From Antedon mediterranea (taxonomy: Eukaryota > Echinodermata > Crinoidea > Comatulida > Antedonidae): a stretch of 64,000 nt of DNA. The notes beneath the pieces were generated by a model. It did not search any database. It was not told the origin of the DNA and worked only from the letters and a program-made list of their open reading frames with translations. The stretch covers positions 29,074,501 through 29,138,500 of the forward strand of contig NC_092672.1 of the NCBI RefSeq assembly GCF_964355755.1. Direction: 5' to 3'. The position numbers and the translations under genes were made by a program. Below are positions 2,735-63,293 of the stretch, piece after piece (within the stretch, counting starts at the first letter, position 1; every line of letters begins with the position of its first letter).

Positions 2735-2827
2735 ATGAGGAGATTATATTCATGTCAGCCTATTTTATCAATAATTATGATTCCTATATTATTTCTCAAC
2801 CTTATAATTGGAGATTTTGCTGAAAAT
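2735..2827 (+). CDS. Exon 1: start codon and signal peptide
   Basis: ATG at 2735 opens a 31-codon exon ending at a consensus donor (GTAAGT) at 2828. A basic start (MRR) is followed by a long hydrophobic stretch of Ile, Leu, Pro and Met residues, as in a secretory signal peptide. An in-frame TGA lies at 2702-2704 and the -3 base is A, which supports this ATG as the start. The exon ends in phase 0 and fits exon 2 at 3625. Confidence 0.8.
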
Positions 2828-5800
2828 GTAAGTGCAAAAAATGTGATTATTATCAAACTTTAGTAGTAGTGTTAGTTTTCGCCAGAACATCAGTTCGGCA
2901 ATTTTAGTTTTCGCCAGAACATCATTTCGGCAATTTGAACTGTTCATGTCTCAAAATGAATTCAAATTGCGTGATTCCTTGTACTTGTATTGTATTATTT
3001 TTATTTGGCTTGTACTGTTATGAGACTTGCTGCCGTGTAAGTTTTGAAAGAATGTCACTCAGAATGTAGAATAGAGTATTCATCGTTCACACGCGCTGAC
3101 GCAGATTTCTGGTGGGAGAGATAGCATACTTGTATCTCAATGACTTGCGATGGTCAATGAACATGTATCTAGTGACAACTGCGAAAGAATCGCGTGGTTC
3201 CTCTGCACATCATGATGTATGGATATTATGTGTGTACGTGTACCACTTTATGAAAATGGTCTACTTGTTGTTATATGTTACACACTCAGCAATGATGACA
3301 GGCCCTATTCTTTAGTTTATAATGTATGTTGTGAACATGACTTTAGGCAAAACTCACTTTGTTATACTAAAACCATGTCACTGACAGCATACTCTGCTAT
3401 TTAAACCAATTGTTTGTTCTCAGGTCTGCCTGATTTTAGAATTTTTTAAGAACAAATCTTGTAACAGCCTAGGCCTATATAAAATTGTTTTTTTGGGTTG
3501 AAAATATTTTTTTCTTTTATAGCTAGTTTATTACATGTTATTCTTCCTGCATCCTAGATACAGTGATTATAAATAGATATATTACTACCATTTATTTTAT
3601 ATTGAAAATCCGTTCGTTTTTCAGGTTGATGTCAACAATAATATTACACAAATAGAAGGAAACCAGTATGGAAACGATACTAAACTGGTAAACGGCACTG
3701 AACTAGTGAACGACACTAAACTAGTGAACGACACTGAACTAGTGAATGACACTGAACTAGTGAACGACACTAAACTAGTGAACGACACTAAACTGGTGAA
3801 AGACACTGAACTAGTGAACGAAACTGAACTAGTGAATGACACTAATCTGGTGAACGACACTAAACTAGTGAACGACACTAAACTGGTGAAATACACTGAA
3901 CTAGTGAACGACACTGAACTAGTGAATGACACTAATCTGGTGAACGACACTAAACTGGTATACGAAACTAAACTGGTGAACGACATTGAACTAATGAACG
4001 ACACTAAACTAGTGAACGAAACTGATCTAGTGAACGACACTAAACTAGTGAACGACACTAAACTAGTGAACGACACTAAACTAGTGAACGACACTAAACT
4101 AGAGAACGACAGTAAACCAATGAACAACACTAAAAAGTCAAATGGAACGGCGAAAATACAGATTATAAAGGCAAACTATGTAAATAGACAAGCGCTTTCA
4201 GTTTTATGGAAGAACTCCTTAATTGGCGCTTACCAAGGGGATATGTTCCTGACGACAGACCAAAAATCACGTTTGGAGGAACTGATCCAAATTAGCGGGA
4301 AAAGAAACAAACGTAAAGCGGTAACGGATTTAGCACTACTCTGGCCTGATGGTGTAATTCCGTACGAAATAAGCGAAGCACTAGGTAGGACTTAATTCTG
4401 TTATTATAATGCATTCTAAGCTTTTTAATATCCTTAAAAAATTTAAGAAATAGTTAGTAGTTTTGTAGCGCATGTTTGAAGAAGATGCATCCGGGAACAC
4501 TGCATTCTACATTCCTAGGTCTGCATAGTTCCATTTTATATATAATTTTCTTCGACTGTAACTTGTTTGTTTCAAGTAATTATTGCGTAATTAAAGAAGT
4601 CAATTATAGCTTACATTGGGGACTGCCATTTTGATTGAATTAGCTTTATCCGGGCAAAACATTCGCCTATCGTTGATGTTTAGTGCGTTCACAGCAATGT
4701 TGTTAACATTCCTGTAGTAGTATATCACCCAGCGGTATCAGTTGACACCTATATTTGGTAAAATTCCAAGTAAACCTGGCAAGGAAGATTTGCAAAGTGA
4801 TGTTTTCATGAATTGTAATACGTAGCTATTCGGCAAATGTTTACAAAAATGCTACAATTTTTTTAATTAATATTAATTGAATTTGTTGGCATATTGTCAG
4901 CCGATTTCGAACCAACCAGGCTAACACTCAATTTACAACAATGATTATATTCGCAGCTAACTATGTTAACTAACTAATATTATTCCTCTTTATAATTTAC
5001 ATCCTATACACGCATCACTGCATTTCAACTCCGAAATATTATCGTTAAAATTATAAATGACTGAAGTAATAGTTTGGTTCAAATTTAGGACACAAAGTAA
5101 AGCCGTACTTAAGTCGATGAGAGATGGATCTGAACTGTTGCATTGCTAAACTCGTTTGCGTCATGTAGGCATATATTTCTACATAAAAAGGACGTCTGGA
5201 TGACATAGCATAAATAACCACAAACGACTAACCTTAACGTTTGTTTAGTCGTACTTGTAGTCTAGAACGTTTTTAATTTTAGGCCTACGCGATATTTCTT
5301 TAATGAAAATTTCCTCCAGATAAACATTAACCAAATTGCTAAACTCCACCGATCCTCGAACAGAAAAATAATCTAGTTACTGGTATTTGGAACCCTTTAA
5401 ATCTAATTTACTATTTATCTATTGAAATGTTAGGACCAACCAAGGTGCTTTAAACAGTCCTAGCTTTGTTTGAATCAAACCTGTTAGTGGCGGTAATTAT
5501 CGCTGTTGGTTTTTTATTGAATAAAATAAAATATAAAGACCTTTTAAGGCCCACTAAATGTAGTTCCTTGAATCTCAATACGAGTACAAAGTTACGACAT
5601 TAAGTTTGGTTTAGATTTTATTTACAAAAAAACGATGGTTACAAGTGCATATAAGCTACACAGCAATGGACAATGGGTAACTTGCTACGTATTTATACCA
5701 TTATGCATTACGTCATTCTATAAATATATCACGCATAACGAAACGATGTGCAATAAATATTACACATACAAATTATAATCTTCTATATGTTGTTTTCAGA

Positions 5801-8800
5801 GGAGAATGAAAAGGCTATTGTATTTGAAGGAATGCAGACGATTGAGTCTTTGACCTGTATTCAATTTGTCAAACATAACGAGTCTATATCTGAAACACTT
5901 GGCCATGATAGTTACATATACATCTACAAAGGAGAAGGGTACGGGACTTAAATTATATAATATTAATATTGGTACTTTTGGGCCACCGTAGTTGTAATAT
6001 GTGTGTTGCTATGTATGTGGCTACTTGCACAAAGACAATACGTGTGCACACAAAAGCTAATGTTGATTACAACGAGTTGGTCAACTTTCAACATTGATTT
6101 GATTTCTTAAGAGAAGTTGAGTTTAAAACAATATACAGTAGGCCTATATTCTGTTTTTTTTCTCTTATTTCCCCATTTTTTGTTTGTTTACTTTTTGGCA
6201 GTAGGCCTATAACTTTTGAATGTAAAGAACCTGAATTACAGGTTGTAACAGCTTCAAATTACTGCCTTCAATTTTCTTTTTTTTATATTTATTATCTTTG
6301 TAGATGCTGGTCTCATGTTGGAAAGCTTAATGGCGGCAGACAATCGTTGTCATTAGATAATGGATGTTACACAGTAAGTAACCGGAGACCCCTAAAGCTT
6401 TGTCTACACAATCAAAATGCAATGTGCCCGTCATATCACTAACATATTATTGGGGCACATCACACTTTCTGTCAAACTAGTTTGATAGTGTAAACATACA
6501 TGGAATTAGTAGTAATATAATATAACACCTAGATTATATGAAAAAAGTGAACAAAGTAAGGGTTTTAAAAATAAAGATTAACCATCTGAAACATTTATTT
6601 TTTAGCCAGGTGTTGTCCTTCACGAACTACTGCACTCCCTGGGTTTTCACCACGAAAATTCACGATCAGATCGTGACGACTACATCAAGATAAACTGGCT
6701 TAGCATTGAAGAAAGTTCAGCAAGTAACTTTGAAAAGACAAACACAATCACGGATTACCCATATGATTTCGATTCTGTTATGCATTATGGCAGGAACGTA
6801 AGCTATGCCTCATCTTAAATTTCTTTTTGTTTGCATGAAAACGGTCAAATTGATGTTTATTTTAATTAGTATTATTTGCACGTAAACATTCACACTATTG
6901 TGAAGTATTAATTTAACCGCTATTATATATATTGACTCAGTATACGGTCCACACAATTCTCTCAAGACTAATATAACACGTTAACATCATGATAGTGGAG
7001 TGAAAATGACTTCTTCTACACAGACTAACTACAATCCAATTTAAACGCAGGCATATTAATATACAACAAACAGGGGAAACTGTCAATTGACAGCCTAAAA
7101 ATACTTACAAGGATGCAATTTCTCGCATATGTACCAGGTTTGACCTAACCGGTCTGTATGTCATTTTCCAGTTTACGACGCATTAACGTCCAGGCCAGCT
7201 GAATATGTGACACGTTCTAAACATTTAATTTCCCCCTGAGATAACCAATTTGAATGGGCAGGATATATTTTATATTCCGTCTTCACATCAAAGATACAGT
7301 CAATTCAATTCCATAAAAGTAGCTAACAAATCGAGCGAAATCGAGCGGAACTGACATTTCCTCTGGTTTCTTTATAGCTGAAAGGAAGTGGTCAAGTTCT
7401 CCATTTCGATCAATTTAACACTCTTAATTAAATTAATTAAAAAGATAAACTGTTATGGTAAAGAAATGAGAAATATAACATTTGAATCATACAATTTAAG
7501 AAATTTGAAAAAAAAATCTTATAAAGATATAACCAATAAAGAAAGAAATTACGGAGATTTTCTTTAAAACATTTACTGAGACAAACAATATTGAGACCAA
7601 AAGGATTTAAGCTGGCTAACGGTCAACCTGATGTTACTGCATATGTATATATTATTAGTTTTTATTTTGCCATACAACAAACACTCTTACAATATTATAC
7701 AATATTTTAAGAGAATATTTTACTGATATATAATATACTGTACCTTGCATACAATTTCTTTAGCTATAAAAGAATTTGAAATTATAAAAACTTGTTCACA
7801 TTTTTCTATCAAATTTTATTAGAGTGCGGTATACAAGAATTTATTAAACGCTTTACTGATATCTATCTATCTATCTATATAAAATGTCTTTATAGAAGAT
7901 TAATATGAAATTATGATTCCAAATTTTTTTTAAATCTATTTTTCTACTATTTTTCTGCTCCTCCACCGATTTTGAAAATTATAATGTTTACTTTTGTTGA
8001 TCTGGTAACAATTTGTAGCTTTAAATGTGGAATATTATTAAAATTAAATTATTTTCTTGTAGAGTTATAGTATTAACGACGACGAGCCATCGATGAAGAC
8101 AATAGATCCTTTGTTACAATACGACATCGGGGGAGGAGACAACTTGACTTATACCGATATAATGACGTTGAATGATGTTTATGGTTGTAGTGGTAAGATT
8201 GCCAATTAAGAACAATCATTATTACATTGTAGAGTAATTTACACACCTGTTGCAGTTATAGATTTCCATAATTAAGCTTGAAACAACCAAACTATTGTGG
8301 TGTAATAATCACGCGAGAGTTGACACGTGAGTAAATTTAATCAATTTTGTAGGCCTATTCGAGAATTGTTCACGTTAGAATAAGCTCTAGTCTACTACTT
8401 AGCTGACTTACCAAATTCACTAAAAATGAACCAAAGTTGGACAATTATTGGTTGCTGTGTACCTGGAAAATTCACTTGTCAAACGCCTGCAGAACAACTG
8501 AACTTACTTTTTTCTTCCTGTAAACGTTTTCTAATTGTTCTGTAGAAAACAAAACATGGTATTTGTTTGGCATGTTGATATTTTCCATCTAAAGTCTACG
8601 CAGGTCGTCCATATATCAAATATATTTTTGGCTAAACCAAAACGACCGAAAACGATAATCGGTGCCTACATTGCGTATGTGTTATATGCCTAACCATTTG
8701 AGGAAATACAGCACGAATGTTGTTCCAATCACATTAACAACAACTTATGTATGATTAATCACATTTTCTCTCTGTAGACAAATGCCCGGAAATAGACTGT

Positions 8801-11800
8801 GGTGCTGGTTTCCTTGGCATTAATTGCCAGTGTTTTTGCTTTCAAGTTGACGAAAATGAATTCGACGAGAAATGTAATCGACATAAACCGGCAGAAACTT
8901 TAGCAGGTAGGCCTAAAATCTAGTGCCAATGATGGGCCTACTAACTGAGTGTAAATAGCACACTTTATACAGTACGTCATGTTTGATTTTACCTTGTAAT
9001 CAAGTCACTTCTTTACACATTATAAGATGTCACAATACAACAATATGTACGTCACGCAAATAAATAAATAATAATATGCTTTGTTTATAATTTCCATATC
9101 TAATTTTTTTTTTTTAGTTGTTAAAATAGTTTCATATTAAATTATTTTAACGTCCCCAACTGTAACACAGCGCACTGGGAAACGAGAACGTTGATTTTTT
9201 TTTCAGCTTATATCTATAAAGCGTTTTGCAACAAAAAAAGGAACAACAAATGCTTCCAGTTTATAATGATTTAAATACCACAATTTGTGTTTTAAATTTA
9301 TTTATAGATTGCAGATACAGTTTAAATGCTGAATCAGGAATAATAACCTCACCAAACTTCCCTTCTAACTACGATGATAACATTAAGTGTTTATGGCATA
9401 TACACGTAAGTAGGACAAAATGTGTATATGTATCAATACACCTATCAGAAGATTCACTGAAACATTTCAGGTGAAATAAGCCAAGGGTATACTCTATTGT
9501 TTGTTCTGTTTATTTGGTGTTGCTACATTTTTGGGAGAAAAAATAACAACACTTTCTGAATTGATTAGCTTACAACATAAACATTAGCAAACAACCTAAT
9601 TTTCCCGTGTGAAATTAGCACCCTCAATGGTTTATTGTGGCTCTAAATACCCAATTACGTCTGCTCGCCAATTCACTCTATTAATAAGTACCACTGTTTT
9701 CATGTCATGTGATACATTATAATGTTAATACAACTTAAATATATCTAAATCAATATTATCTTTAATTTCAGGTAGAAGAAGGAAAGAGTATAACTTTGAC
9801 CTTTCACACTTTCTCAATTGAATCGGCATCTGAGTGCTCACGTGACGTTGTGGAAGTACGAGTTTCTGATCTCTACAAAGAATCCAAAAAGTATGTTGAA
9901 AGTCTAACCAAAGAATTTCATTTTGTCTGCTTAGTAGCCAAAATTGAACTTGCAAGATTGGCTTGGTTCGCACTGGAACATAATGTATCAAATACACTTC
10001 TTCCTTAAAGCCAATCGATCTTGGAAATTAACACCTCGATCACGATCGATCAATCCCATATATAATACAAAATCGTGGATTTTGATATTTTACTATCGAT
10101 ATGTAACGTTATTCTTCCATAATCTATTGTATCTACACCCTATAAAATTATTTTATCTATAAAATTCGTATTCGTAAAATCATTTTTCAGTAAGTTATGT
10201 GGTCATGGACTTCCGGGTCAAGTACACACAGAAAACAATGAGCTTTTATTGTACTTTGAAACAGACAGTAAAATCAATTCTATTGGGTTCAATGCCTCAT
10301 ACGTCACCAATGATGATTACCATAGTAAGTTTTAAAATGCCAATATTCTAAAAAAAATTACAACATACATAGCTTAAAAGAGTAGTAACTGCCTTTGAAA
10401 GCCCATTCTTTTCCCTGCAGATAGATAGAAATATATTTACACTACAACAAACATTATCGTCCCATTTAAAGGACGGGTAAGGTGCTTTAGTTTATTGCTT
10501 CTTCCCATTTGACAGCGATGGAAAAAGAGGAAAGTTTCTTGGCCGCCTAGAAAACGGTCCACGGCTGCCTTGATCTTTACACACAGCAAAGTCCATGCTT
10601 TACAATTACGCCATCTTTCTTCTATCTGGTTACTGAACACTTCAGCAAACCAATTTCGTTGGGAATATAGAATAATGCCGAGTAATACATTTAGGTACAG
10701 TATCCCAATCCCGAATAAATACAGCTTGAAAATACGAGCTTTTTTCTTTCTTAAAGATGACACCTCTCACGAATGTTGGCGGGACAGCTGTTACATAGAC
10801 ATCAAGGAGGAAGCAGTATGGAGCGATGCCCAAGAAATGTGTCAACAAATCGATGGACATCTTCCAGAAATTGACAGTTCAGACAACAACGACTTCATTC
10901 GGTCCTACGCTTCAGATTGTAACGTTGGACAAAACTTCTGGATTGGATACATGTCTGCTGAATATGGTGACGATTGGCAGTGGGCTTCTGGCAACCAGAC
11001 GATTAACTTCACTAGTACGTTTAAATCAATGTATCTCGCTATACATACAATCTCTAAATTGTATGTTATGTAAGCCAGTCTACATTAGCAGAAGTTTTGT
11101 TTGCAAAGTCTAAGTATGTACATGTTCGGAGAAGGTTATGTTACTTGAAGCTGTCCATCTGAGAATCAGACGAGTACAGTGTAAGTCATTTGATCACCAG
11201 GTGGACAGCCTCCAGTAAGCACAAGCATCTCCACACAGTTGAAAATTCGGAGTATTTTTTTACAAGCCCATTACAGCTACATGTTAATATTTGTTCCATT
11301 CCACTTTGACAAAGTATAGGTATCCAAAGTGCACTCTATTTACAATTGTTAAGCTCCTAACTTAACTTTGGTAGCGTAAAATCACAATTTTATAGTACTC
11401 CTTTATTGATAATTAGGTTGGGAGACTGGATACCCGTATCCTCGTGGTAGTAGTGCGTTGTGTGCCGACGCGTCCGTTTACGGATATTGGAAAAGTGAAA
11501 AGTGTTCAACAACCTATTCGGCTGTCATCTGTCAAATACATTCAGAAGGGAGTGGTACGGTACACTATTTTGTTTCTTTTGCTACTTCAATGACCACTAC
11601 TTGCTAGCACTCTTCTGATATCACTTGATGTGTCTGCTGCTACTACCGACACTACAGCGCACTGAAAACACCAACCGCTGCAACACCAATACTACTATTG
11701 GTGGATTGCAGCTGCTAGTTTGAAAATATTGTATATTATTAATATCTTTTCATATTTTAGCATTGTGGTTTGACTGGGAGCCTTGGTCATACTGCACAGT

Positions 11801-23800: not shown

Positions 23801-26800
23801 TTCAAATCGAAAGCTTCATATTATTAGATTTGAATTTTGTCTTTGTAATACTTATACGATATTCATAAATGATGCACAAATAAAACCAATGTTAAATCAT
23901 TATTTTCGCATTTCTATTTCTAGAAACTACATATGCTTACATGCAATGCCCAAATGACGTTGTAGTTTATGTTGATAACCTGGTGACTGGTACTACTGCA
24001 TCATGGGATACACCAGTAGTGAATGATCTTTACAATCGCGAGATGCAAGTGATTTGCGAACCCATCACTGGTTCGGAGTTTTTGATTGGTCAAACGATAG
24101 TGACGTGTAGAGCAATATTTGACGAATCAGAAGAAGCGTTATGTTCATTTAGTGTTGATGTCTTCGGTGAGTATTTGTTAAGTAATAAGAAATAAGTAAT
24201 TATATTTTATAACCAACAGCAATTGCGCATGATGTACTAATGGAACATAAACTTTAAATACAAGTTTTAATAGTTTGTACTTTGTACAGCAATACATTTC
24301 TTTTTTTCTCCGGCATGAATGTTACCACACTGGCATTTTTCATTGTTTCATTTAGTTTGCGACATATCATTCGAAGCGAGTTGTTACAAATTGATAAGTT
24401 CTAAGCAAACGTTCCAACAATCACGTGATCTGTGCAGAGCAGACGATGCTGATTTCGTCACTATAGAGACCGAGAAAGAAAGGGACTTTGTTCTGAACGT
24501 TCAATACGAAACGTTTCAATCGTCTGCACTGATCGGATTGAATGACATCGACAATGAGGGGTCATGGACATGGATTGACGGTGGTTCCTTATTACAAGAT
24601 CAATTTCAAGGTGACTTACATATTGCCTCAGAATTGAATAAGGGGCATATGTTGGGGTAACGCATGTTGGGGGCCTATTACAACTGTGGTGCGGGGGCGG
24701 GGTTGGTGTGGAGCTCGACACCGTTCAAGCTGAATGTGCCTATACCCAGCTTATTCGACAAAAAAAGGCTGACGTACGTAAAATTGCGTTGGAAAATACT
24801 ACAACAATAAAATACTGAGTCCATTTGAAGTCTATTTTCCTGTTGTGTTTTCAATGATCCTACATACAAACTAAAATATATTTAACTGTCTTTTTTGTTG
24901 GTATGATTCAGTAAGTGTTCTAATTGTATTCGTCTATAAACATTATTACTAAAACACAGTTTAAATCTGATTTTATATTCCAAGAATGGGCATCAGGAGA
25001 ACCAAATAACAAAGATCCGGGTGAAGATTGCGTTCTTATGAAAACAAGTGGACAATGGAAAGATGTTCAATGTGACGCACAGAACAGAGCGATATGTGAA
25101 TTAGGTAGGAATCCTACTGTAGGTTTCAATTATTTTCAAGTTAAACCAAATAAAAAGTAACAATGTTCCGCAGATAACCACTCCCCAGTCAGCATACCGT
25201 ATTACTTACAATACAATCTTAATTAGTTGGTTGCTTGTGATTTTATTAGAACTCGTTTTTCATATTTTTTACCTCCATCGCTATAATGTAGTCAGGTTTC
25301 GTTTCAAACGTAATAATAATACGTTTATACATATTCATGAGGCGTCTAACAGTAACAGCATCCATTTCAGGATAATCGGTTAGTTACCTAAAAATATTCA
25401 TTAAGAATAAACGATTGCGCCAAATTTCCGGTGCTATTATGTTTCGACTTCAAATTGTCATATATTACGTAATACAACAATCATACAATATGCAAGTTCA
25501 TCATTCGTGGCCATAGTTGGTCAGTTATGCAAGTTATATAAAGTAATTGTAATCATTTCTAATGAAAGTATTAGATATACATATGCTTCTTAGGCCAGAT
25601 ATGATTTGTTTTCCAAATTCTTTCAGAGATGTCAAACTTACGGCTGCAATGTCCGAGTGATATTCAGGAACAAGTTAGTCAAAGAAAATCGGGACAGATT
25701 GTCTATTATAGTGATCCACAATTAGTAGATTCAGAGCAAAGAGATCTATCAATAGATTGTACCACTCTATCTGGAATGACCTTTGACATCGGTGTGACCA
25801 ATGTGACATGTGGTGCTGTCCCGGATGGCAGCATTCTTACTGTGTTTTGTTCTTTTTCGGTTACGATAGAAGGCAAGTTTTAGGAAATCAATGAACTAAA
25901 ATCTTTTAATAAATGTTATAGAAGATTATAAATATTATATATCAGAAAGCGTGATTAATTATATAATATGATTTTTCGTTATAGTTGAGTATATTCCAAC
26001 AATCACGTGTCCAGAAAGAGCAACTGCTTTTGCCAGAGAAGGAACCTCGTCTGCAACAGTCGTCTGGGAATCTCCAATAATCGATGACGCAAATGGCAAA
26101 AGTTTTTACATCGTCTGCGACCAGGAGGCGAATTCACAATTCCAATTAGGGGAAACGAACGTCACGTGTGCAGCAACATTTGAGGATGGTTTAACGATAG
26201 AATGCAGTTTTCCCGTTATAGTAACAGGTACACACTTTTATTCTTCAGTAACAGTGTAGAACCTGTCTATGGTAAATCAATCGTATAATACAAAATTGTA
26301 TAATATACCACGCCATTGCGTCAAACACCATACCGTAATTTTAGGCCTATAAGAACCCTCATGTCATCACTTATAATGCTATTTCATTTTCATATTGTTT
26401 GTTTGTAGCATGCGATATTAGGCTAGAGTTCAGCTGTTACGTTTTTGTGACGTCAAAGATGACATTTTTCGAATCCAAAACAGGATGTCAAGAAATTGGA
26501 GCTGACCTTCTTGTTATTGACTCTGTAGAGGAGAACTCTTTTATCACATCTAGAATGGCTGATGAGGTGCCAGATGCTAATATGGTATACATTGGAATGG
26601 ACGATAGAGACGTTGAAGGTGTTTGGAAATGGATCCATGGCGATATTGTTGGAGAGGATGCGTTTAAAAGTATATGAACATTTGTGTTTCCTTATTAATT
26701 AGGCCTTTTAGGGACACAGCAAACTTTGTTAACTTGTCTACACTACCAAACTTTGGAAAACCTATCTTGCCAGATTCGGAGTTTGTTCATATTTGCTAGT

Positions 26801-29800
26801 AGATACTAGGAAGATATTCCGTGTACGCACAGAAACATGAGTATTCTTGATTAGTACACTATGTTTTAGGAACGGTTTATCTTACAGTTTAAGTTGTACA
26901 AATATTATAAAATGATTACCGTACATAACATGTTTGCTTTTCCGTCAACAGATTGGAAGGAAGGAGAACCAGATAATCTAAACGACCAAGATTGTGGGTT
27001 AATTTTTGATGATGGTTTATGGACAGATAATCTGTGCAGCAGAGATTTTCCATCTATTTGTGAAAAAAGTAAGATATAATAATCTATCATATCTTCATAA
27101 TTTATACAATTTCAAACAATAGATCGACCTAAGGCTACAGTAGTACAAATATAATTATTTGAAAGTTGGAATGTTTTCCTTTTTAGATACTATGTACGCA
27201 TATATGAATTGTCCAGGCGACATCAGGATCGAAATAGATTCAAGTGTTACCGGTGCAGCTGCATCATGGGATACGCCAGTCGTTGTTGATCCGAATAATC
27301 GTGAAATGACGGTAAAATGCGAACCGAGTTCTGGATCAGATTTTCTACTTGGTGTTACATCAGTGACTTGCATAGCTCTTTACGAGGACTCAGAGCAAGC
27401 AATATGTTCATTCAATGTCGAAATTATTGGTAAGTTACGAATACCTGCCATGTGACGTCATATTCGTTTAAATTATCCACACAATACTTTAGGCACAGAC
27501 ATTACCTCCCATGTGACAAGATCCCAAAAGTGTAAACGATAAAACAGAATCAAGTATATGTTGTGTTGTTTCAGTTTGCGAAACCACGTTTGAAGGAAGT
27601 TGCTATAAGTTCATGACCTCTAAAAAGACCTTTCAAGATTCACGTGACCTGTGCAAAGCAGAGAATGCGGACCTTGTGACCATAGAAACAGAAGCTGAAA
27701 GAGACTACATTTCTTTTCTTCAGAACGAGTACCTTGGGTCATCCGCATTAATTGGTCTGAATGACATCGATCAAGAAGGGACGTGGCAGTGGATAGATGG
27801 CTTAGCATTTCACCAAGATGATTTCCAAGGTTTGTTCTGCAGACAATGTTTTACATTACTTATTTAATTAATTTTAGATTCTTCATTTAGTAGTAAATGC
27901 TTTAATTAAAAGTTGCATTTAAACTAAAAAAAATGATTATGATACCTGGAATGTCTAGCCTTATGAAAATTAGGCTAAATCAAATTTACGGAGCACCGTC
28001 TGATATATTAACATTTCTTGTAAACAACAATGCATGGTTTGACATTTTTTTGCCAAATAATTGTTTGGCTTTTACAAACTATTGTCTCGTCTTTCAAGAC
28101 AAACAATGTTTCTTTTTTTTAAAACTATAAACGAAACCGTTATTTGTCTTTCGCAAACAAAGTCTGTCTTTACAAATCATGATTTGTAGGAAACATAATA
28201 TATACTGTAGTGTGTGGGACCGAACAATTCATTTACCCATATTACCAAGAGTTGTACAGATACACTTTTGTTCTTGTAGACTGGGCCTCTGGAGAACCAA
28301 ACGGAGATTCAGGTGAAAACTGCGTCACAATGAAAACGAGTGGACAATGGAAAGATGTCAGTTGTGATTTACAGAACAGAGTTATCTGTGAATTGGGTAT
28401 ACCGTCACAATGTTAACATCTCACACAAACATATTAGGTATGCTGCATAATGAAATGAATGATCTTTTTACGGAAAATAACAAGAATCTAATTTCCTGTT
28501 CTTTACAGATATTCCAAAACTGCAATTATCCTGTCCAGACGACCTAACCAAACTAATCAGCGAAAGTGAAACTGTTGGTTTAGTAGATTACAGTACACCA
28601 GTGTTGGTAGATCCTGATCAGCAACGTGAGGTGACTATTACGTGTGAACCAGAATCAGGAACAGAATTTCCACTTGGTTCTTCTATTGTAACGTGCGGGG
28701 GTGTTCCAGACAGCAGTATACTTACGGCTTACTGTTCTTTTACGGTCACGGTGGAAGGTAAGTTTTAAAAAAGAAATGTACAACACGAGATTTTCAAGAA
28801 AATATGAAACAGGCTTCCAAAATATCTAAGATATAAATAATTATTAAAATAAAGACATTTTAAGTAGCTACAAATAAATAATTTATCATTTATTCTGATA
28901 AAAGAGCTTTTCTTTACTAGTTGCACCAACGCCTATTTTAGTGTGTCCAACGAGTGCTGCCGCTTTTGCCAGAGAACGAACATCGTCTGCAAAAGTTGTT
29001 TGGGAATCTCCAGTGGTGGATGATGTCCTTAAGCGAGAATTTGACATCGTCTGCGATCCTCCCGTAAATTCAGAGTTTCCATTAGGAGACAGCACTGTAG
29101 AGTGTGTAGCAACTACAGATGGCACTCAAGTTTCTTGCAGCTTTTCAGTAACTGTGACAGGTAAACTGGTATTACTGTATATAAGGCAACATACCATGTT
29201 TTATTTGTTTTGTTTTAACAAATAAGTAGACAACACAATAGAAGCAGAATGCTGAAGAGGGTCAAAAGCAGAAAAACGACCTAACCGGGAAGCGATATTT
29301 CTTTTCGTACATAAGTTGGGGACCCCTCGTCAAACGTCACAAAATAAACATGAATATTCATTAGTCATATCAATAAGGTGTGACGTAAGAATTAAGCTAA
29401 CTACAATTCGCTAATGCAAACGATTTCTGTCGAGCCGTCTGTGTAGTCGAGTGGATAAGACTATCTTTACATGTCGATGTATGGGGTTCGATTCCCATGA
29501 GCTACTTCTTTTACTTTATAGTGAGAGACAGATTATTAAGAGGGTTAGGTTTAGTTATATTTAGGAAGTAGTTCGGCTATCTTTCACATGGGGTCCCCAA
29601 CTTATGTACGAAAAAAAAAATCGCAACCGGGAATGGTGTGACCCTCCAATTCCATTGTGTCACAAATAGCTTTTTCAGTATGTTCATTATAGCAAGCTAG
29701 CTTAACCGTTACCACACTAAAGATGAGTTCTATGCCACATTTAAAACGTATTTGGCCAATAACCATGTTTCTATTTTATACTCAATTCAGCGTGTGATAA

Positions 29801-32800
29801 CCGGTTCCAATTCAACTGTTACATTTTCATCAATGAAAAGAGGACGTTTTCTGAGTCGAGATCAGCATGCCAGGAGATCGGAGCTGATCTACTGGTGATT
29901 GAGACAAGGGAAGAGAACGAGTACATCACCAGTACAATTGAGATGGAGATGCCAGGCGTGGTATCGATGCTAATTGGAATGGAAGATAGCGAAGTTGAAG
30001 GAGACTGGGTTTGGATAAATGGAGATCGACTCGCCAACAGTTTTACATGTGAATAAAATTGATTTGCTTTTAAACACTGTTGTTCTAAAACTGTTAGTTG
30101 GCCTCTGACTCCGACAGTCCGCCGCCGCACATCGTCACAGTAGCATGTTTAATGAGAGAGTTTTTAAACGAGATATTAAATCACTTATTGCATAATTTTA
30201 CTTTTACTACTTATTTGATAGATTGGAAGGAAGGAGAACCAGACAACTCTAACAACCAAGACTGTGGGTTTATCCTCAGTGATGGTCAATGGAGTGACAA
30301 CCTTTGCACACGTGATTCGGAAGCTATCTGTGAAGCAAGTAGGTTGAGATATCTAATAGATACTATTTTACTTCTATTTAATAAAACGTAATTCCATTAC
30401 ACCTGAAACATGTGTGGCTGCAACGTGACATTCTATGTAACGCCAACGTTGACGAACCGAACAAAGTAGTACAACAGCGTGTAATGAAAAGCCGAAGTTG
30501 ACAACATTAATAACTGCTATCCTAAGCCATACGTTAAACGTTTGTATTGTTTACGATTGTTCACAGGTACTACATATGCGTACTTGACATGTTCAGGTGA
30601 CATTGTCATCCACACAGACCCACGAGTAAATGGCGCTACTGTATCATGGGACACGCCAGTAGCTACTGATCCAAACAACCGCAAAATGGAAGTCACGTGT
30701 AAGCCTATGTCTGGATCGGAGTTTTTAACTGGTGAAACAGACGTCACATGCAGAGCCACATTTGACGAATCAGAGCAAGCCACGTGTTCATTTAGCGTTA
30801 ACATTGTTGGTAAGTTATAAATACCGGTTACGGATCACCAAGTTCATTCAATTCAACACATTTTAATAAAAACATCATTACTGGTGTTTCTTCTTTCAAA
30901 CTTTTCAGCTTGCGAAACAGCCTTCGAATTTAGTTGCTACAGCTTCATAACTACCAAGCAAGTTTTTGAATCATCACGTGATTCATGTATAGCAGAAAAC
31001 GCCGATCTGGTATCCATAGACTCAAAGGCAGAAAGGGACCACGTCACATTCCTTCAAAACGATTTGTTAGGTTCATCTGCATTTATCGGTCTAAATGACA
31101 TCGAAATGGAGAACTCTTGGAGGTGGATTGCTGATGATACAATATTGACAGAAATCGGCTTCCAAGGTAAGTTCCATTTTGTTACACCAAGTAGGCCTAT
31201 AAATCACAATAAAGTTGTGCAGATTACTTTTGTTTTTTCTCTCCAATCACACGTTGCCAATGCTTCTTTAACAACGTTCTTCTGTTTCTACACAAAGACT
31301 GGGCATCTGGAGAACCAAACGGAGATTCAGATGAAAATTGCGTCACAATGAAAACGAGTGGCCAATGGAAAGATGTCAGCTGTGATTCTAAAAACAGGGC
31401 GATTTGTGAACTTGGTAAGTTATAATAAATCTCAAATTTAGGTAAATTTATATAAAGATTATCAGCATGCGATATCGTGCCAAAGACTACGAGAACACAG
31501 TGTCTCAAACGATAAAGTATTAAAACTTCTGAACCATTTTTGTCGCTTTACATTTTTGACTGATATTGTTTTTGCTTACAGAAATATACCCTTTGAGATT
31601 ATCTTGCACGGCGGACATCACCACAATAATCAAACAAGGCAGCTTCGGCAAAATTGTTACTTACACTATACCACAGCTGGTGGATCCAATCTTTGAGAGG
31701 TATGCAGCAGTAACTTGCAACTATCCACCAGGAGCAGTGTTTCCAATTGGAACAACAGTTGTGACGTGTGAAGGGGTACTGGTTGAAAGTTTAATGACGG
31801 CATCGTGTTCTTTCTCTGTAACGGTAGAAGGTATGTATACCCACCAGTGTCAATCATCCTCCAAATGTTAAGAAATCCATTGTTTAGTTATTGTATTGCT
31901 CATTAGGATTAGCTTTAACCATCAGCTTCCACTATGTCGCAAAGTAATGACGTAAGAGCAACGATCTCACCAATCACGTGATCTAAGTCCTTGCATTATG
32001 TTGCTAGTGGGACCAAAGCTTTATAAAGACATCTAACCAGAGAGTGATCATACAAATGATCTACAGTTAAATCCTGGTAGCCAAACGTGTCTTACACATT
32101 TCCCCTTTTAAATACGTAATTATGTTCATTTTTACGGTCGACTATATTGGTCAGTCTTACTTCCAGTCTCAGTACGTATTTTTTTAAAAGAATGTAATAC
32201 CATATCCATCCATGACGTAACATCTTTTGTAAAACATTGTGGACTGTTTCTTTTTAATTCAGAGTGCGAGATCGGATACCTGAACAGTTGTTACATTTAC
32301 ATATCAACCAAAAATACATTTGACGGGCAGGCATCTAAATGTCAAGAGATAGGAGGTTCACTAGTAGACATTCACAGCCAGGAAGAAAACGATTTTCTCT
32401 CTGTTAACTTTCAGAGCATAATGGAAAACGACAAAGCGTATGCAGGCTTGCGATACACACCAGAAAATGGTTGGAAATGGCAAGATGGACGGGGTATTGC
32501 AGACTATGAATGTTAGTAAAACTGAATACTAATAAAGCTAACTAATAAAATCGATATCTGAAAAATGTCATGCTCTCATACTTGGAGTTACACCAGGGAA
32601 GAGTGAAATTACGCTAATTGCACTCTTCCCTAGTTACACAGTCTTATAGGCCTACACTTTAAAGTGAGCCGAGCTGCATGAATAAAAATCACAATTGTTA
32701 TTTCAGATTGGGACAGTTCACAACCTCGAAAATATAAAGACGGAGAAGCCTGTCTATCATTGAGACCTGAGAATGGAAAATGGGTGGACCAGTACTGCAC

Positions 32801-33744
32801 GACAAAGTTACCGACTATATGCGAAATAGGTACGGGCTAGTAGGCCTATTATTAGTCCGAGACAGTAGTCGTACAGTGGCTTATTAAGTCTCCATAAAAG
32901 TAAAGACCTTCTTTTCAAAATTCCAGTTTGCACACTGATACAGAAGAAAAGTCGCAATCAATAGTAATAATGCCATAGTTGTTGAAATGGATACATTAAC
33001 TAGGCCTACTTACCAACAATTCGATGGCCGCCGATATAACCCTCGTGTCGCGGTACGGTAGCTCTTTCGGTGTCGCAAAACCTCTTTACGGTATGCTTAA
33101 CCTGGAACACCACATTAACCTCCTGCGCAGTGCCTATATTTAATTTAACTGAATAACAAACATGGCGTAAACACTAATAATAATAATTAATGAACAGTTG
33201 TTTTGCGCGCAATTGTTCAGACAATATCTTTTAATAGCATACTGTGCTTTCTAAAAAAATTGTGAACACGTGTTATGTATATCGTTCGTAATCGCCATCA
33301 CAATGATGCAAAACTGTATTTCAGCTGAAGCTTCGTTGTTGGCGGCGGTAGTTCAAAGATGTTCAAAACTGAGGCTTTATTTACAAAACATGATCATCTA
33401 AATGTTAATGCTAGATTAGTAAAATTGCTATTTTGAAAACCCAATACTAATAATACTAATACTAATTATTATTACTTTTTGCTGCTAAGCATGTTTGATA
33501 AATCTTACCCTTTTATCTAAGCCCATTTAAGCAATTTTACAATTAATTTATTTTGAACATTATACAATCCACCAAACGAGTGAAAGGCGCACTGACATTT
33601 TAGTGAATGTATGAAATCAACACAACCATTCAATTAATATTATATTAGAGAATGTGAAACATCAAAGATAAAAAGAACTTCAATTATAATGTAGCAATTC
33701 AAATAGGCCTACTTGTGTTTTTTTCTTCAGATATTGGTGGGTAA
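2735..33744 (+). CDS. Giant secreted astacin-CUB-lectin-TSP1-F-type lectin-HYR/CTLD protein (59-exon model)
   Basis: I assembled 59 exons by hand from reading frames, splice sites and domain homology; they total 11,865 bases and join without a frame break into 3,954 residues plus stop. Order: signal peptide, repeat-rich propeptide, astacin protease (about 263-461), Cys-rich linker (462-504), CUB (505-621), CTLD (622-753), TSP1 (754-803), F-type lectin (804-947), HYR, CTLD, HYR, CTLD, then five units of HYR-CTLD-HYR-CTLD-HYR (1361-3826) and a last CTLD (3827-3950). There is no transmembrane segment after the signal peptide, so it is predicted to be secreted. From the intron after exon 10 to the one after exon 58 all introns are phase 1, so each exon from 11 to 58 is symmetric. 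One intron has a GC donor. Function is inferred from domains: zinc peptidase coupled to carbohydrate or protein recognition. I know no family with this whole order. Least certain are the last exon and whether all exons enter one mRNA. Confidence 0.85.
2873..2938. repeat. Two-copy tandem repeat of about 32 bp in intron 1
   Basis: The stretch GTTTTCGCCAGAACATCA, then TTCGGCAATTT, occurs twice back to back with one mismatch (CAGTTCGG versus CATTTCGG). It lies 45 bases after exon 1. Confidence 0.85.
3625..4384 (+). CDS. Exon 2: repeat-rich propeptide and start of astacin domain
   Basis: Begins after a pyrimidine tract and CAG, and ends in phase 1 at a GTAGGA donor. Residues 48-203 are 26 copies of a six-residue repeat (consensus N-D-T-K/E-L-V). 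After it comes normal astacin propeptide sequence, including YQGDMF, where Asp237 fits the zinc-blocking aspartate switch of the family. The string KRNKRK just before the mature start (about Ala263) is a furin-like basic site. The mature domain opens with the typical [11 protein letters not shown]. Astacin propeptides are often short; this one is unusually long because of the repeat. Confidence 0.85.
3673..4140 (+). repeat. 18-bp coding minisatellite, 26 units, N-glycosylation sequon array
   Basis: Exactly 26 in-frame 18-base units with the core AACGACACTAAACTAGTG. Twenty-two units carry an N-x-S/T sequon; units 8, 13, 17 and 18 have lost it. A further N-G-T follows at 4141. Units differ at synonymous and Lys/Glu/Asn positions, and neighbouring units share variants, as expected from unequal exchange or slippage. 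All length changes by whole units keep frame. The reverse strand is also open for 169 codons, but that is a by-product of the repeat. Confidence 0.95.
4385..5799 (+). other. Intron 2, nothing recognised
   Basis: AT-rich intron of 1.4 kb between the propeptide exon and the next astacin exon. No open frame of note and no identified repeat apart from one TAGGCCTA at 5280. Confidence 0.7.
5800..8192 (+). CDS. Exons 3-6: astacin (M12A) zinc metalloprotease domain
   Basis: Exons 5800-5938, 6304-6373, 6606-6797 and 8063-8192 continue the catalytic domain begun in exon 2. Exon 5 holds the zinc motif [12 protein letters not shown]: His360, His364 and His370 are the ligands and Glu361 the catalytic base, followed by the family signature RSDRDDY. 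The Met-turn SVMHYG at the end of exon 5 supplies Met413 and the Tyr415 ligand. Four cysteines (in LTCIQF, CWSHVG, NGCYT and YGCS) match the two conserved disulfides. Nothing essential is missing, so an active secreted endopeptidase is expected after propeptide removal. The family includes BMP1/tolloid, meprins and hatching enzymes; the downstream domains here differ from all of these. Confidence 0.93.
6392..6495. mobile_element. MITE family B, short copy in intron 4
   Basis: Left end CTTTGTCTACACAATCAAA and right end GTTTGATAGTGTAAAC are inverted versions of the family ends seen at 35.3, 48.6 and 58.3 kb; the inner GGGCACATCACA is shared. Begins about 20 bases after the exon 4 donor. Confidence 0.75.
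6798..8062 (+). other. Intron 5, low-complexity AT-rich DNA
   Basis: Separates the zinc-site exon from the next exon. Contains a short (TCTA)n microsatellite near 7861 and AATT-rich runs near 7425. No coding signal. Confidence 0.7.
8778..8906 (+). CDS. Exon 7: Cys-rich linker after the protease
   Basis: A 43-residue phase 1-1 exon with the pattern C-x4-D-C-x7-N-C-x-C-x-C and a later Cys. Astacins often carry an EGF-like or short Cys-rich segment between protease and CUB. The spacing here is not a full EGF domain, so I call it only a Cys-rich linker. Confidence 0.75.
9308..10324 (+). CDS. Exons 8-10: CUB domain
   Basis: Exons 9308-9405, 9772-9890 and 10191-10324. The start (C-R-Y-S-L, then [20 protein letters not shown]) is a classic CUB opening with its first two cysteines. 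The second pair lies in [10 protein letters not shown] and LCGHGLPG, and the end ([10 protein letters not shown]) matches the usual G-F-x-A-x-Y strand. Astacin followed by CUB is common in BMP1/tolloid and nematode and sea-urchin astacins. CUB domains usually mediate calcium-dependent protein contacts. The domain looks complete. Confidence 0.88.
10325..10756 (+). other. Intron 10 with an antisense open frame of unknown meaning
   Basis: The minus strand is open for 108 codons (10763-10437). The product has a hydrophobic stretch but no motif I recognise, and the base composition is richer in GC than neighbouring introns, which hints at a transposon fragment. I do not call it a gene. Confidence 0.4.
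10757..11554 (+). CDS. Exons 11-12: first C-type lectin-like domain
   Basis: Exons 10757-11014 and 11417-11554. The CTLD fold is clear from [20 protein letters not shown] and the terminal C-S-x-T-Y-S-A-V-I-C. The loop that holds the sugar-binding calcium in classic lectins has no EPN or QPD motif and no WND, so calcium-dependent sugar binding by the standard mode is unlikely. It differs from the later, mutually similar CTLDs. Confidence 0.85.
11761..12030 (+). CDS. Exon 13: TSP1 repeat and start of F-type lectin domain
   Basis: Residues about 754-803 are a thrombospondin type-1 repeat: W-x-x-W-x-x-W, then C-x-V-S-C-S-G-G, R-x-R-E-C and C-A-E-E-P-C. The overlapping WFDW and WEPW are standard C-mannosylation motifs. 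The same exon runs on into the F-type lectin domain (A-x-G-K-P-A, then N-A-V-D-G-N), so two domains share an exon here, unlike the rest of the gene. Confidence 0.88.
12132..12532 (+). CDS. Exons 14-15: F-type lectin (fucolectin) domain, binding residues altered
   Basis: Exons 12132-12221 and 12311-12532 complete the domain begun in exon 13. Typical marks are SCSIT before P-W-W-M-V-D-L-G, the NRADCCGE strand and GRYVSVQL near the end. Known fucose-binding members use a His in the first motif, an Arg before x-D-C-C and a second Arg four residues after that Asp-led stretch. Here the His position reads Ile, the first Arg is kept and the second position reads Tyr. The fold is likely preserved but canonical fucose binding is doubtful (inference from motif positions, without alignment). 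Confidence 0.82.
12812..13060 (+). CDS. Exon 16: HYR domain 1
   Basis: A single phase 1-1 exon of 83 residues with the HYR pattern: L-T-C-P early, V-T-W-P, a central [13 protein letters not shown] and a closing [12 protein letters not shown] domains have an Ig-like fold and occur in sea-urchin hyalin and many secreted adhesion proteins. This copy is more diverged than those in the repeated array. Confidence 0.85.
13235..13625 (+). mobile_element. 5'-truncated LINE 3' end with (AAAT)n tail
   Basis: An open stretch (to TAA at 13519) encodes [10 protein letters not shown], then F-x-I-P-F-S-R, L-S-Q-T-Y-N-S-F and an N-N-F-R-K-F-R-N end. This is the usual C-terminal tail of CR1/Jockey-like LINE reverse transcriptase proteins (basic segment, then Y-N, then F-K/R). 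A short 3' UTR follows and ends in an AAAT microsatellite (13603-13625), the expected 3' end. No reverse transcriptase core is present, so it is a dead, truncated insertion in intron 16. Confidence 0.7.
13758..14385 (+). CDS. Exons 17-18: CTLD with QPD motif
   Basis: Exons 13758-14003 and 14260-14385. The CTLD is complete, with F-G-D-S-C-Y, the S-W-I-G-Y strand and a terminal C-x8-I-C. It is the only CTLD in the gene with QPD at the calcium-site position, which in vertebrate lectins goes with galactose preference, followed by G-E-D-C. The usual WND is replaced by K-Y-K-D, so one calcium ligand (Asp) is kept. Confidence 0.85.
14471..14626. mobile_element. MITE family A, copy 1 (intron 18)
   Basis: Almost its whole length is one inverted repeat: left end GTGGTTCCCACTAG, right end CTAGTGGGAACCAAG, inner arms GACCAATCACAAGCGA and CGCTTGTGATTGGTT. 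It is the best-preserved copy in the window. No coding capacity. Confidence 0.88.
14685..15747 (+). CDS. Exons 19-21: HYR 2 and CTLD, a partial array unit
   Basis: HYR exon 14685-14927, CTLD exons 15140-15397 and 15631-15747. The HYR has P-x-M-S-C-P, V-S-W-E and [10 protein letters not shown]. The CTLD belongs to the class with W-K-S-G-E-P-D-N and N-Q-D-C-G seen in the first half of each later unit. The pair therefore looks like a truncated or ancestral copy of the five-domain unit, lacking its second half. Confidence 0.85.
15893..16030. mobile_element. MITE family A, copy 2 (intron 21)
   Basis: Ends TTGGTTCCCATTAG and TAGTGGGAACCAAGCATTA, with the inner CGCTTGTGATTGGTC arm shared with copy 1. 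Confidence 0.85.
16077..18831 (+). CDS. Exons 22-28: array unit 1 (HYR-CTLD-HYR-CTLD-HYR)
   Basis: Exons: HYR 16077-16316; CTLD 16512-16766 and 17035-17151; HYR 17290-17532; CTLD 17853-18101 and 18204-18320; HYR 18583-18831. Residues about 1361-1850. The three HYRs are distinct subtypes (alpha with A-F-A-R-E-G-T, beta with T-S-Y-A-F-M-D-C-P, gamma with L-R-L-L-C-P). The first CTLD has G-Q-P-Y in place of GEPD, unlike its equivalents; the second has D-W-A-S-G-E-P-N and G-E-N-C. The exon 28 acceptor (GTCAAAG) has a weak pyrimidine tract. Confidence 0.87.
19047..22032 (+). CDS. Exons 29-35: array unit 2
   Basis: Exons: HYR-alpha 19047-19289; CTLD 19622-19879 and 20030-20146; HYR-beta 20341-20583; CTLD 20723-20977 and 21091-21210; HYR-gamma 21790-22032. 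Residues about 1851-2343. HYR-gamma of unit 1 and HYR-alpha of this unit are adjacent, so two HYRs in a row mark every unit junction. The first CTLD has GEPDN with NQDCG; the second has GEPNN with GEDC. Exon 34 is nearly identical to exon 41 in unit 3. Confidence 0.88.
22267..25872 (+). CDS. Exons 36-42: array unit 3
   Basis: Exons: HYR-alpha 22267-22509; CTLD 22714-22971 and 23534-23650; HYR-beta 23924-24166; CTLD 24356-24610 and 24985-25104; HYR-gamma 25627-25872. Residues about 2344-2837. The longest unit in genomic span because of bigger introns, one with a run of about 16 C at 23459. Exon 40 uses a weak donor (GTGACT). Exon 42 ends at a GC donor (GCAAGT at 25873), where every paralogous exon has GT. 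Confidence 0.87.
25985..28757 (+). CDS. Exons 43-49: array unit 4
   Basis: Exons: HYR-alpha 25985-26227; CTLD 26409-26669 and 26952-27068; HYR-beta 27187-27429; CTLD 27575-27829 and 28280-28396; HYR-gamma 28509-28757. Residues about 2838-3332. All splice sites follow the pattern of the other units. The first CTLD has W-K-E-G-E-P-D-N with N-D-Q-D-C-G, the second D-W-A-S-G-E-P-N with G-E-N-C and W-K-D. Confidence 0.88.
28921..31830 (+). CDS. Exons 50-56: array unit 5
   Basis: Exons: HYR-alpha 28921-29160; CTLD 29791-30048 and 30222-30338; HYR-beta 30567-30809; CTLD 30909-31166 and 31298-31414; HYR-gamma 31582-31830. Residues about 3333-3826. The intron between exons 50 and 51 holds a transposon with a tRNA-like core (29292-29624). 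Exon 51 uses a GTGAAT donor. Exons 48 and 55 are close relatives, consistent with recent duplication of neighbouring units or exchange between them. Confidence 0.88.
29292..29624. mobile_element. Short long-TIR (MULE-like) element with 9-bp target duplication
   Basis: Starts GCGATATTTC and ends AAAATCGC; about 35 bp of each end are inverted copies (both contain ACATAAGTTGGGG or its complement). Both flanks carry AACCGGGAA (29283-29291 and 29625-29633), a 9-bp target duplication. Nine-base duplications with long inverted ends point to Mutator-like elements. Its left 80 bp match the ends of the larger element at 54215-56074. Lies in the intron between exons 50 and 51. Confidence 0.8.
29436..29512 (+). 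other. tRNA-like sequence inside the MULE-like element
   Basis: TAGTCGAGTGGATAAGAC resembles a tRNA D-arm (A box), and ATGGGGTTCGATTCCCAT forms a perfect T-arm (B box) at the right distance. The outer stem pairs poorly and no good anticodon arm forms, so it is a tRNA-derived relic or SINE head rather than a working tRNA gene. Confidence 0.6.
31911..32022. mobile_element. MITE family A, copy 3, degenerate (intron 56)
   Basis: Right end GCTAGTGGGACCAAAGCTTT and inner ACCAATCACGTGAT match the family; the left end is worn (CAGCTTCCACTATG). Confidence 0.65.
32263..32829 (+). CDS. Exons 57-58: terminal CTLD
   Basis: Exons 32263-32511 and 32707-32829. A complete CTLD of 124 residues that matches neither unit class: the loop reads W-D-S-S-Q-P-R-K with G-E-A-C, so the EPN/EPD calcium motif is gone although W-V-D remains. 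Exon 57 ends at a GTTAGT donor. It directly follows the HYR-gamma of unit 5, where a new unit would have begun with HYR-alpha. Confidence 0.82.
33731..33744 (+). CDS. Exon 59: four codons and stop
   Basis: A strong acceptor (long T tract then CTTCAG) is followed in the correct phase by codons D-I-G-G and TAA. The C-terminus would thus be hydrophilic, with no membrane anchor. The bases GGTGG followed by GTAAAA could also be a donor, making this a 10-base microexon leading to further exons that I cannot identify. I see no unique polyadenylation signal; the 3' end is unresolved. Confidence 0.5.

Positions 33745-37191: not shown

Positions 37192-63293
<26,102 letters not shown>

Follow-up and report, generated by a model that had tools for sequence, protein, structure and literature searches.

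A predicted astacin protease with a tail of about 30 lectin-type and spacer domains in Antedon mediterranea, most likely encoded by one gene and the longest found of a five-gene family

Astacins of the tolloid/BMP1 type carry several CUB domains that alternate with EGF domains, and the aspartate switch of astacins has the form FxGD. The CUB-bearing astacins of sea urchins include SpAN and BP10. Multi-CTLD receptors, such as the mannose receptor and lymphocyte antigen 75, are animal membrane receptors that are not known to have a protease or HYR domains. Latency conferred by an aspartate switch and a prodomain is described for astacins in a review that names CUB, CLEC, FA58C, HYR, IG and TSP among the domains found with these proteases (PMC9848320). 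The naming is that of a legend, which does not give the domains that co-occur in one protein.

The window analysed here, the whole 64,000-nucleotide stretch of DNA, was located at C3:29074501-29138500 by an own-genome search. Its focal gene was modelled with a dynamic-programming gene finder, using a coding model trained on domain peptides from a six-frame translation, and the raw output comprised 58 exons. The model was edited by hand: the start was moved to 2735, six internal exons were re-bounded by their sister exons, which biases the model towards regularity, the last exon was swapped, and an exon in the middle of the F-type domain (12132-12221), missed by the gene finder, was inserted. 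The resulting splice model runs from 2735 to 32840 on the plus strand, with 58 exons, 11,862 coding bases, 3,953 residues and zero internal stops, and thereby confirms the one long open frame of the first-pass annotation, which had been given as 3,954 codons in 59 exons between 2735 and 33744. The 3' end can be read in two ways, as a TAG in frame at 32838-32840 or as a splice that leads to a TAA at 33742-33744. Donors are GT in 56 of the 57 introns and GC at exon 42, acceptors are AG in all 57, and several donors have low scores. Every one of introns 10-57 is in phase 1, and 48 exons (7 and 11-57) are of the phase 1-1 kind. A 32-base repeat in two copies, 96% matching, lies directly past exon 1 (2872-2936). 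Downstream, a minus-strand model of a kinase gene, by its look of the ACK/TNK2 type, bounds the 3' extension of the focal gene; exons which that model puts at or below 34473, where they would overlap or adjoin the focal gene, were taken as false. A tandem repeat at 37899-38756, with periods of 33 and 15 bases (25.5 and 51.3 copies), corresponds to an acidic DEEDDF-type repeat in the kinase model. An Rfam scan of the 64,000-nt window returned 0 matches at gathering scores.

The predicted protein contains one astacin domain, one CUB, one TSP1, one F-type-lectin fold, 14 CTLDs and 17 HYRs (Table 1). This inventory, including the intact protease, had been claimed in the first-pass annotation and was borne out by Pfam and by HYR alignment. 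Pfam thresholds were E 0.001 for exons 1-28 and E 1 for exons 29-58. Exons 1-16 matched Astacin (183.9 bits, covering positions 2-189 of the 189 in the profile), CUB (95.1), Lectin_C (56.5), F5_F8_type_C_2 (56.3), TSP_1 (37.3) and HYR (27.0). Four Lectin_C and two HYR stretches were found in exons 17-28 (E 0.001), two Lectin_C and three HYR in each of exons 29-35, 36-42 and 43-49 (E 1), and three of each in exons 50-58 (E 1). The HYR scores, against a cut-off of 21.7, were 27.0 bits for the first stretch, 94.8 for exons 17-28 and between 83.1 and 88.6 for every one of the four later stretches. Pfam thus supports all 14 CTLDs and, as separate stretches, 15 of the 17 HYRs, the remaining two being assigned by alignment with other HYR exons alone. 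No Pfam match to EGF was obtained (exons 1-28 at E 0.001, exons 29-58 at E 1), and there was one CUB stretch.

In the protease head, the zinc motif HExxHxxGxxH is intact at residue 360 and the Met-turn SVMHY lies at residue 411. The motifs YQGD (residue 234) and RNKR (residue 258) stand just upstream of the astacin domain. Among solved structures, those closest to this domain are hatching-type astacins, crayfish astacin, meprins and BMP1. N-glycosylation sequons are concentrated towards the N-terminus, with 24 of the 44 in the whole protein falling within residues 32-285, and the 18-base coding repeat encodes sequons.

Table 1. Features of the focal gene, its neighbour and its relatives on C3 (positions in the window unless marked C3)
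Feature	Position	Strand	Basis or remark
Whole focal gene	2735..32840, alternative end 33744	+	58 exons, 3,953 residues
Exon 1	2735..2827	+	Hydrophobic N-terminus, taken as signal peptide (sequence; hydrophobicity 2.96, best ten residues)
Coding tandem repeat, 18-base unit, 25.7 copies	3673..4134	+	Many N-glycosylation sequons
Astacin catalytic domain, from the end of exon 2 through exon 6	4342..8192	+	Pfam
Cysteine-rich linker, exon 7	8778..8906	+	Without Pfam match
CUB, exons 8-10	9308..10324	+	Pfam
Head CTLD, exons 11-12	10757..11554	+	Pfam
TSP1 and F-type lectin fold, exons 13-15	11761..12532	+	TSP1 and start of F-type domain within one exon (13)
First HYR, exon 16	12812..13060	+	Pfam
Dispersed repeat in intron 16	13273..13620	+	AATAAA run in tail
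First array CTLD, exons 17-18	13758..14385	+	Pfam, alignment
HYRa-CTLDa half cassette, exons 19-21	14685..15747	+	Alignment
Cassette 1 (HYRa-CTLDa-HYRb-CTLDb-HYRc), exons 22-28	16077..18831	+	Alignment, direct repeats
Cassette 2, exons 29-35	19047..22032	+	Alignment, direct repeats, Pfam
Cassette 3, exons 36-42	22267..25872	+	Alignment, direct repeats, Pfam
Cassette 4, exons 43-49	25985..28757	+	Alignment, direct repeats, Pfam
Cassette 5, exons 50-56	28921..31830	+	Alignment, direct repeats, Pfam
Terminal CTLD and stop, exons 57-58	32263..32840	+	Pfam
Gene model with kinase domain in first part	63837-37196	-	Tyrosine/serine-threonine kinase (Pfam), tail to tail with focal gene
C3n	C3: astacin exon matches start at 29065532, last CTLD exon lies at 29053636	-	Head to head with focal gene, outside window
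C3b1 and C3b2	C3: 10.319-10.339 Mb	+	Tandem; exon matches
C3c	C3: 26.243-26.234 Mb	-	Exon matches

Past the F-type domain, 17 HYRs and 13 CTLDs form an array that reads HYR-CTLD, HYRa-CTLDa, five cassettes and a final CTLD; the five types HYRa, CTLDa, HYRb, CTLDb and HYRc, defined by identity tables, cover most of its modules. The cassette HYRa-CTLDa-HYRb-CTLDb-HYRc occupies seven exons and 2.8-3.6 kb and stands in five head-to-tail copies, and the tail has evidently grown by tandem duplication of this unit. Among the direct repeats listed (those of at least 60% identity), DNA identity is 61-77%, one 97% pair apart, which gives the cassette duplications an old appearance. The repeats end no more than 18 bases from the exon borders with which they were compared, and a recent origin of the whole array was rejected on these two grounds. 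The exceptional pair is formed by exons 34 (21089-21215) and 41 (24983-25109), which share 97% of 127 bases, against 76% identity in the neighbouring stretch. Near-identity of this kind inside diverged cassettes suggests local exchange or gene conversion.

Same-type modules were also compared by substitution class. In 60 of 60 pairs pN was smaller than pS, giving no sign of diversifying selection at the domain level; mean pS was 0.63-0.77 by group, and the dN/dS ratio was discarded because pS is near saturation. Identity between same-type copies was 37-52% at third and 64-83% at second codon positions, and the array is evidently kept as protein. Long tandem arrays are prone to pseudogenes and misassembly, and the near-identical exon pair could be cited in favour of an artefact here. 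The third codon positions are nevertheless the most diverged, the listed copies outside that pair share well under four-fifths of their bases, and 58 exons read through without a stop or frameshift, on which account we give a pseudogene or assembly artefact a probability close to negligible.

An own-genome astacin search (59 of 59 candidates scored) returned 32 matches, one of them to an astacin exon that lies on the opposite strand, some 11 kb beyond the left edge of the window. The genome pieces examined were those around this neighbouring exon and around several, though not all, of the other astacin exons. Exon matches revealed the head order astacin-CUB-CTLD-TSP1-F-type in four more genes on C3, designated C3n, C3b1, C3b2 and C3c (Table 1). 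The orders of these paralogues rest on exon matches because their splice models missed some exons. Beyond the F-type domain we found HYR-CTLD-HYR-CTLD in C3n, HYR-CTLD-Ig-CTLD in C3b1 (the Ig, between the CTLDs, by Pfam) and HYR-CTLD-CTLD in C3b2, where the exon matches leave the intervening stretch unresolved; in C3c a CTLD is present and no HYR was found by exon matches. The F-type matches of C3n are weak (E 0.013 and 0.036) and its F-type domain has no Pfam match. The sisters therefore resemble the focal gene in the head order and in a three-exon F-type domain, with a CTLD after it in four of four and an HYR between in three of four, and differ from it in having two to four modules found past the F-type domain against 30.

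Of the 81 matches listed for a query of exons 11-15 (122 of 327 candidates scored), those to the fused TSP1/F-type exon all fall at the five C3 loci. The HExxHxxGxxH motif is intact in all four sisters, and ten of ten astacin active-site exons compared across the genome keep the catalytic motif. In a FastTree tree of the active-site exon (~62 residues), the focal gene grouped with C3b1, C3b2 and C3c at 0.92, and C3n adjoined this group at 0.51. The family is best explained by a protease head that would be the conserved part and a tail that would be the evolving part. No paper describing the whole focal domain order was found by title or abstract opening within CC-licensed PMC text. The first-pass annotation had called the architecture undescribed; the whole order is indeed unmatched in the literature searched, but the head is common to five C3 genes, so that what seemed a unique architecture becomes the extreme member of a five-gene family, of which the focal gene is the longest found.

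Elsewhere in the genome, a C10 model (24455168-24462690) joins an astacin, a CUB and six HYRs and is partly like the focal gene; no CTLD or F-type domain was found with it by exon matches. After this model, near 24.475-24.482 Mb of C10, lies a second astacin with repeated TSP1-like exons. HYR domains are very abundant in the genome (C1-C11), with matches for 150 of the 150 candidates scored out of 1,417.

The first-pass annotation had read the locus as a single gene. Its open frame is by itself weak evidence of this, because introns 10-57 share phase 1, and module exons bounded in this way would stay in frame wherever they were joined. Two adjacent genes, one for astacin-CUB-CTLD-TSP1-F-type and a separate one for the HYR/CTLD array, could thus have been merged by prediction with the frame staying open over the border. 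The model is known here from genomic sequence alone, an AATAAA/ATTAAA site lies at 12598 in intron 15, and novel domain combinations in lancelets have reportedly been attributed to gene-prediction errors (PMC4967905). Against such a merger stand the same-head paralogues, which cross the junction: counting the focal gene, the F-type domain is followed by an HYR in four of five family genes and by a CTLD in five of five (exon matches), and since the sisters repeat the same join, the join of head to array is old. The content of intron 16, the simplest place for a second gene to begin, points the same way. The intron measures only 697 bases, of which 348 are an inserted repeat. With 40 of 142 candidates scored, this repeat has at least 39 other genome copies, which are 91-100% identical to it; from its appearance it may be a LINE 3' end. 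Five AATAAA/ATTAAA sites in the intron, starting at 13603-13619, all lie in the repeat tail, and no polyadenylation signal was found in intron 16 outside the inserted repeat. Its AATAAA run was rejected as a gene end, given its position in the tail of a dispersed repeat. All introns were also scanned for alternative first exons (an ATG, a hydrophobic start and a phase-1 donor). Two stricter threshold sets gave 0 candidates and the loosest gave one, in intron 2, with none in intron 16; as a control, the true exon 1 clearly exceeded the limits set on hydrophobicity and donor strength. The two-gene reading was rejected as first choice on the strength of the paralogues, and we consider it highly improbable. 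The focal locus is most likely a single gene for one very large secreted enzyme, which would carry an astacin on a tail of about 30 lectin-type and spacer domains.

Sugar-binding motifs were examined across the 14 CTLDs, with EPN present in five and QPD in one. In an alignment with human mannose-binding protein, EPN, the E that follows it and the D of WND are all conserved in CTLDb (the exon 33-34 copy), where K replaces the N of WND; one of the five CTLDb copies, that of cassette 1, has N in place of the D of WND. The corresponding CTLDa motif is EPD in five of six copies and QPY in one, neither of which is classical. The best PDB scores of CTLDb were to multi-CTLD receptors (mannose receptor, lymphocyte antigen 75), and its ligand site resembles those of mannose-binding protein and other mannose-type lectins. 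This resemblance and the multivalency of the array would suit an immune effector, in which CTLDs that bind microbial glycans would direct the protease to the microbe or trigger a proteolytic cascade, but the excess of pS over pN in every copy pair, with diversifying selection not seen at the domain level, speaks against it, and we hold such a role to be distinctly unlikely.

The F-type domain is clearly related to FBP32 (E 1.9e-36) and to the lectin 1k12 (E 6e-18), so that the fold named in the first-pass annotation stands. The fucose contacts of 1k12 are His, Arg and Arg. Opposite these the focal domain has Ile, Arg and Tyr; with two of the three contacts missing, fucose binding by this domain was rejected, and the "lectin" of the earlier label is probably not a fucose lectin. 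An RXD element was not found in the middle F-type exon matches of C3b1, C3b2 and C3c, and the C3n match stops before that site. We conclude that CTLDb would be the main source of any glycan binding, the F-type domain being probably structural or a binder of another ligand.

From the intact catalytic domain, the domain order and the gene family, all seen in the sequence, we infer latency, cleavage, glycan binding and a site of action, and lean, at somewhat better than even, towards a furin-activated secreted zymogen, encoded by one gene and tethered by an HYR/CTLD rod to the glycans of a matrix or coat. The prodomain would hold the astacin latent through an aspartate switch (YQGD) until furin removed it at RNKR. 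The HYR domains would act as spacers of a long rod, along which CTLDb, one per cassette, could provide multivalent calcium-dependent glycan binding. Such binding would anchor the protease to a matrix or surface coat, where it would cleave the molecules that are bound. Counted against the tether are the K for N in the WND of CTLDb, the EPD/QPY motifs of CTLDa and the two lost F-type contacts; further points against the model are the C3c gene without HYR, the weak F-type match of C3n, the GC donor, the low-scoring donors and the six hand-set boundaries. More broadly, the protein may have a role in extracellular matrix or innate immunity.

An adhesive or embryonic coat offers a fair rival, in which the HYR and CTLD modules would serve to construct a secreted matrix or to attach to one, and the protease would remodel or loosen it, since a sea-star astacin is found on footprints and a footprint protein has hyalin repeats. 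That CUB-bearing astacin is produced by de-adhesive cells, remains on the adhesive footprint and has been proposed to help the animal detach; Sfp5, another protein of the footprint, contains hyalin repeats, and hyalin itself forms an embryonic matrix in sea urchins (PMC9382459). The known sea-star protein, however, has 445 residues and is described there without an HYR/CTLD array (PMC9382459), and the present animal may be without such attachment organs; we regard this role as unlikely. The 48 phase 1-1 exons would be skippable in frame, HYRs singly and CTLDs as pairs, so that one gene could give many proteases with different tails. That the C3 family is a modular aimed-protease system, with an activatable head and tails remodelled through cassette duplication and exon exchange, perhaps with exon skipping as well, is a long shot. 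If the single-gene reading is true, the locus provides an extracellular protease on an unusually long lectin-type array, and the four shorter C3 genes would preserve an earlier design. It would also offer a readable series of a protease gaining and lengthening a targeting tail by exon-cassette duplication, and natural variants for asking whether the tail sets the protease's site of work.

Tolloid/BMP1, sea urchin SpAN and BP10 and the sea-star Astacin-like Sfp (PMC9382459) have an astacin domain followed by CUB, with the catalytic motif, like the focal protein. Unlike astacins of the tolloid/BMP1 type, the focal protein continues after one CUB with a CTLD, TSP1, an F-type domain and an HYR/CTLD array, and not with more CUB or EGF. 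With the mannose receptor and lymphocyte antigen 75 it shares many CTLDs per chain. Tandem HYRs are found in it as in hyalin and other HYR proteins, but here, in contrast to those proteins, HYRs and CTLDs alternate, and the chain also includes a protease.
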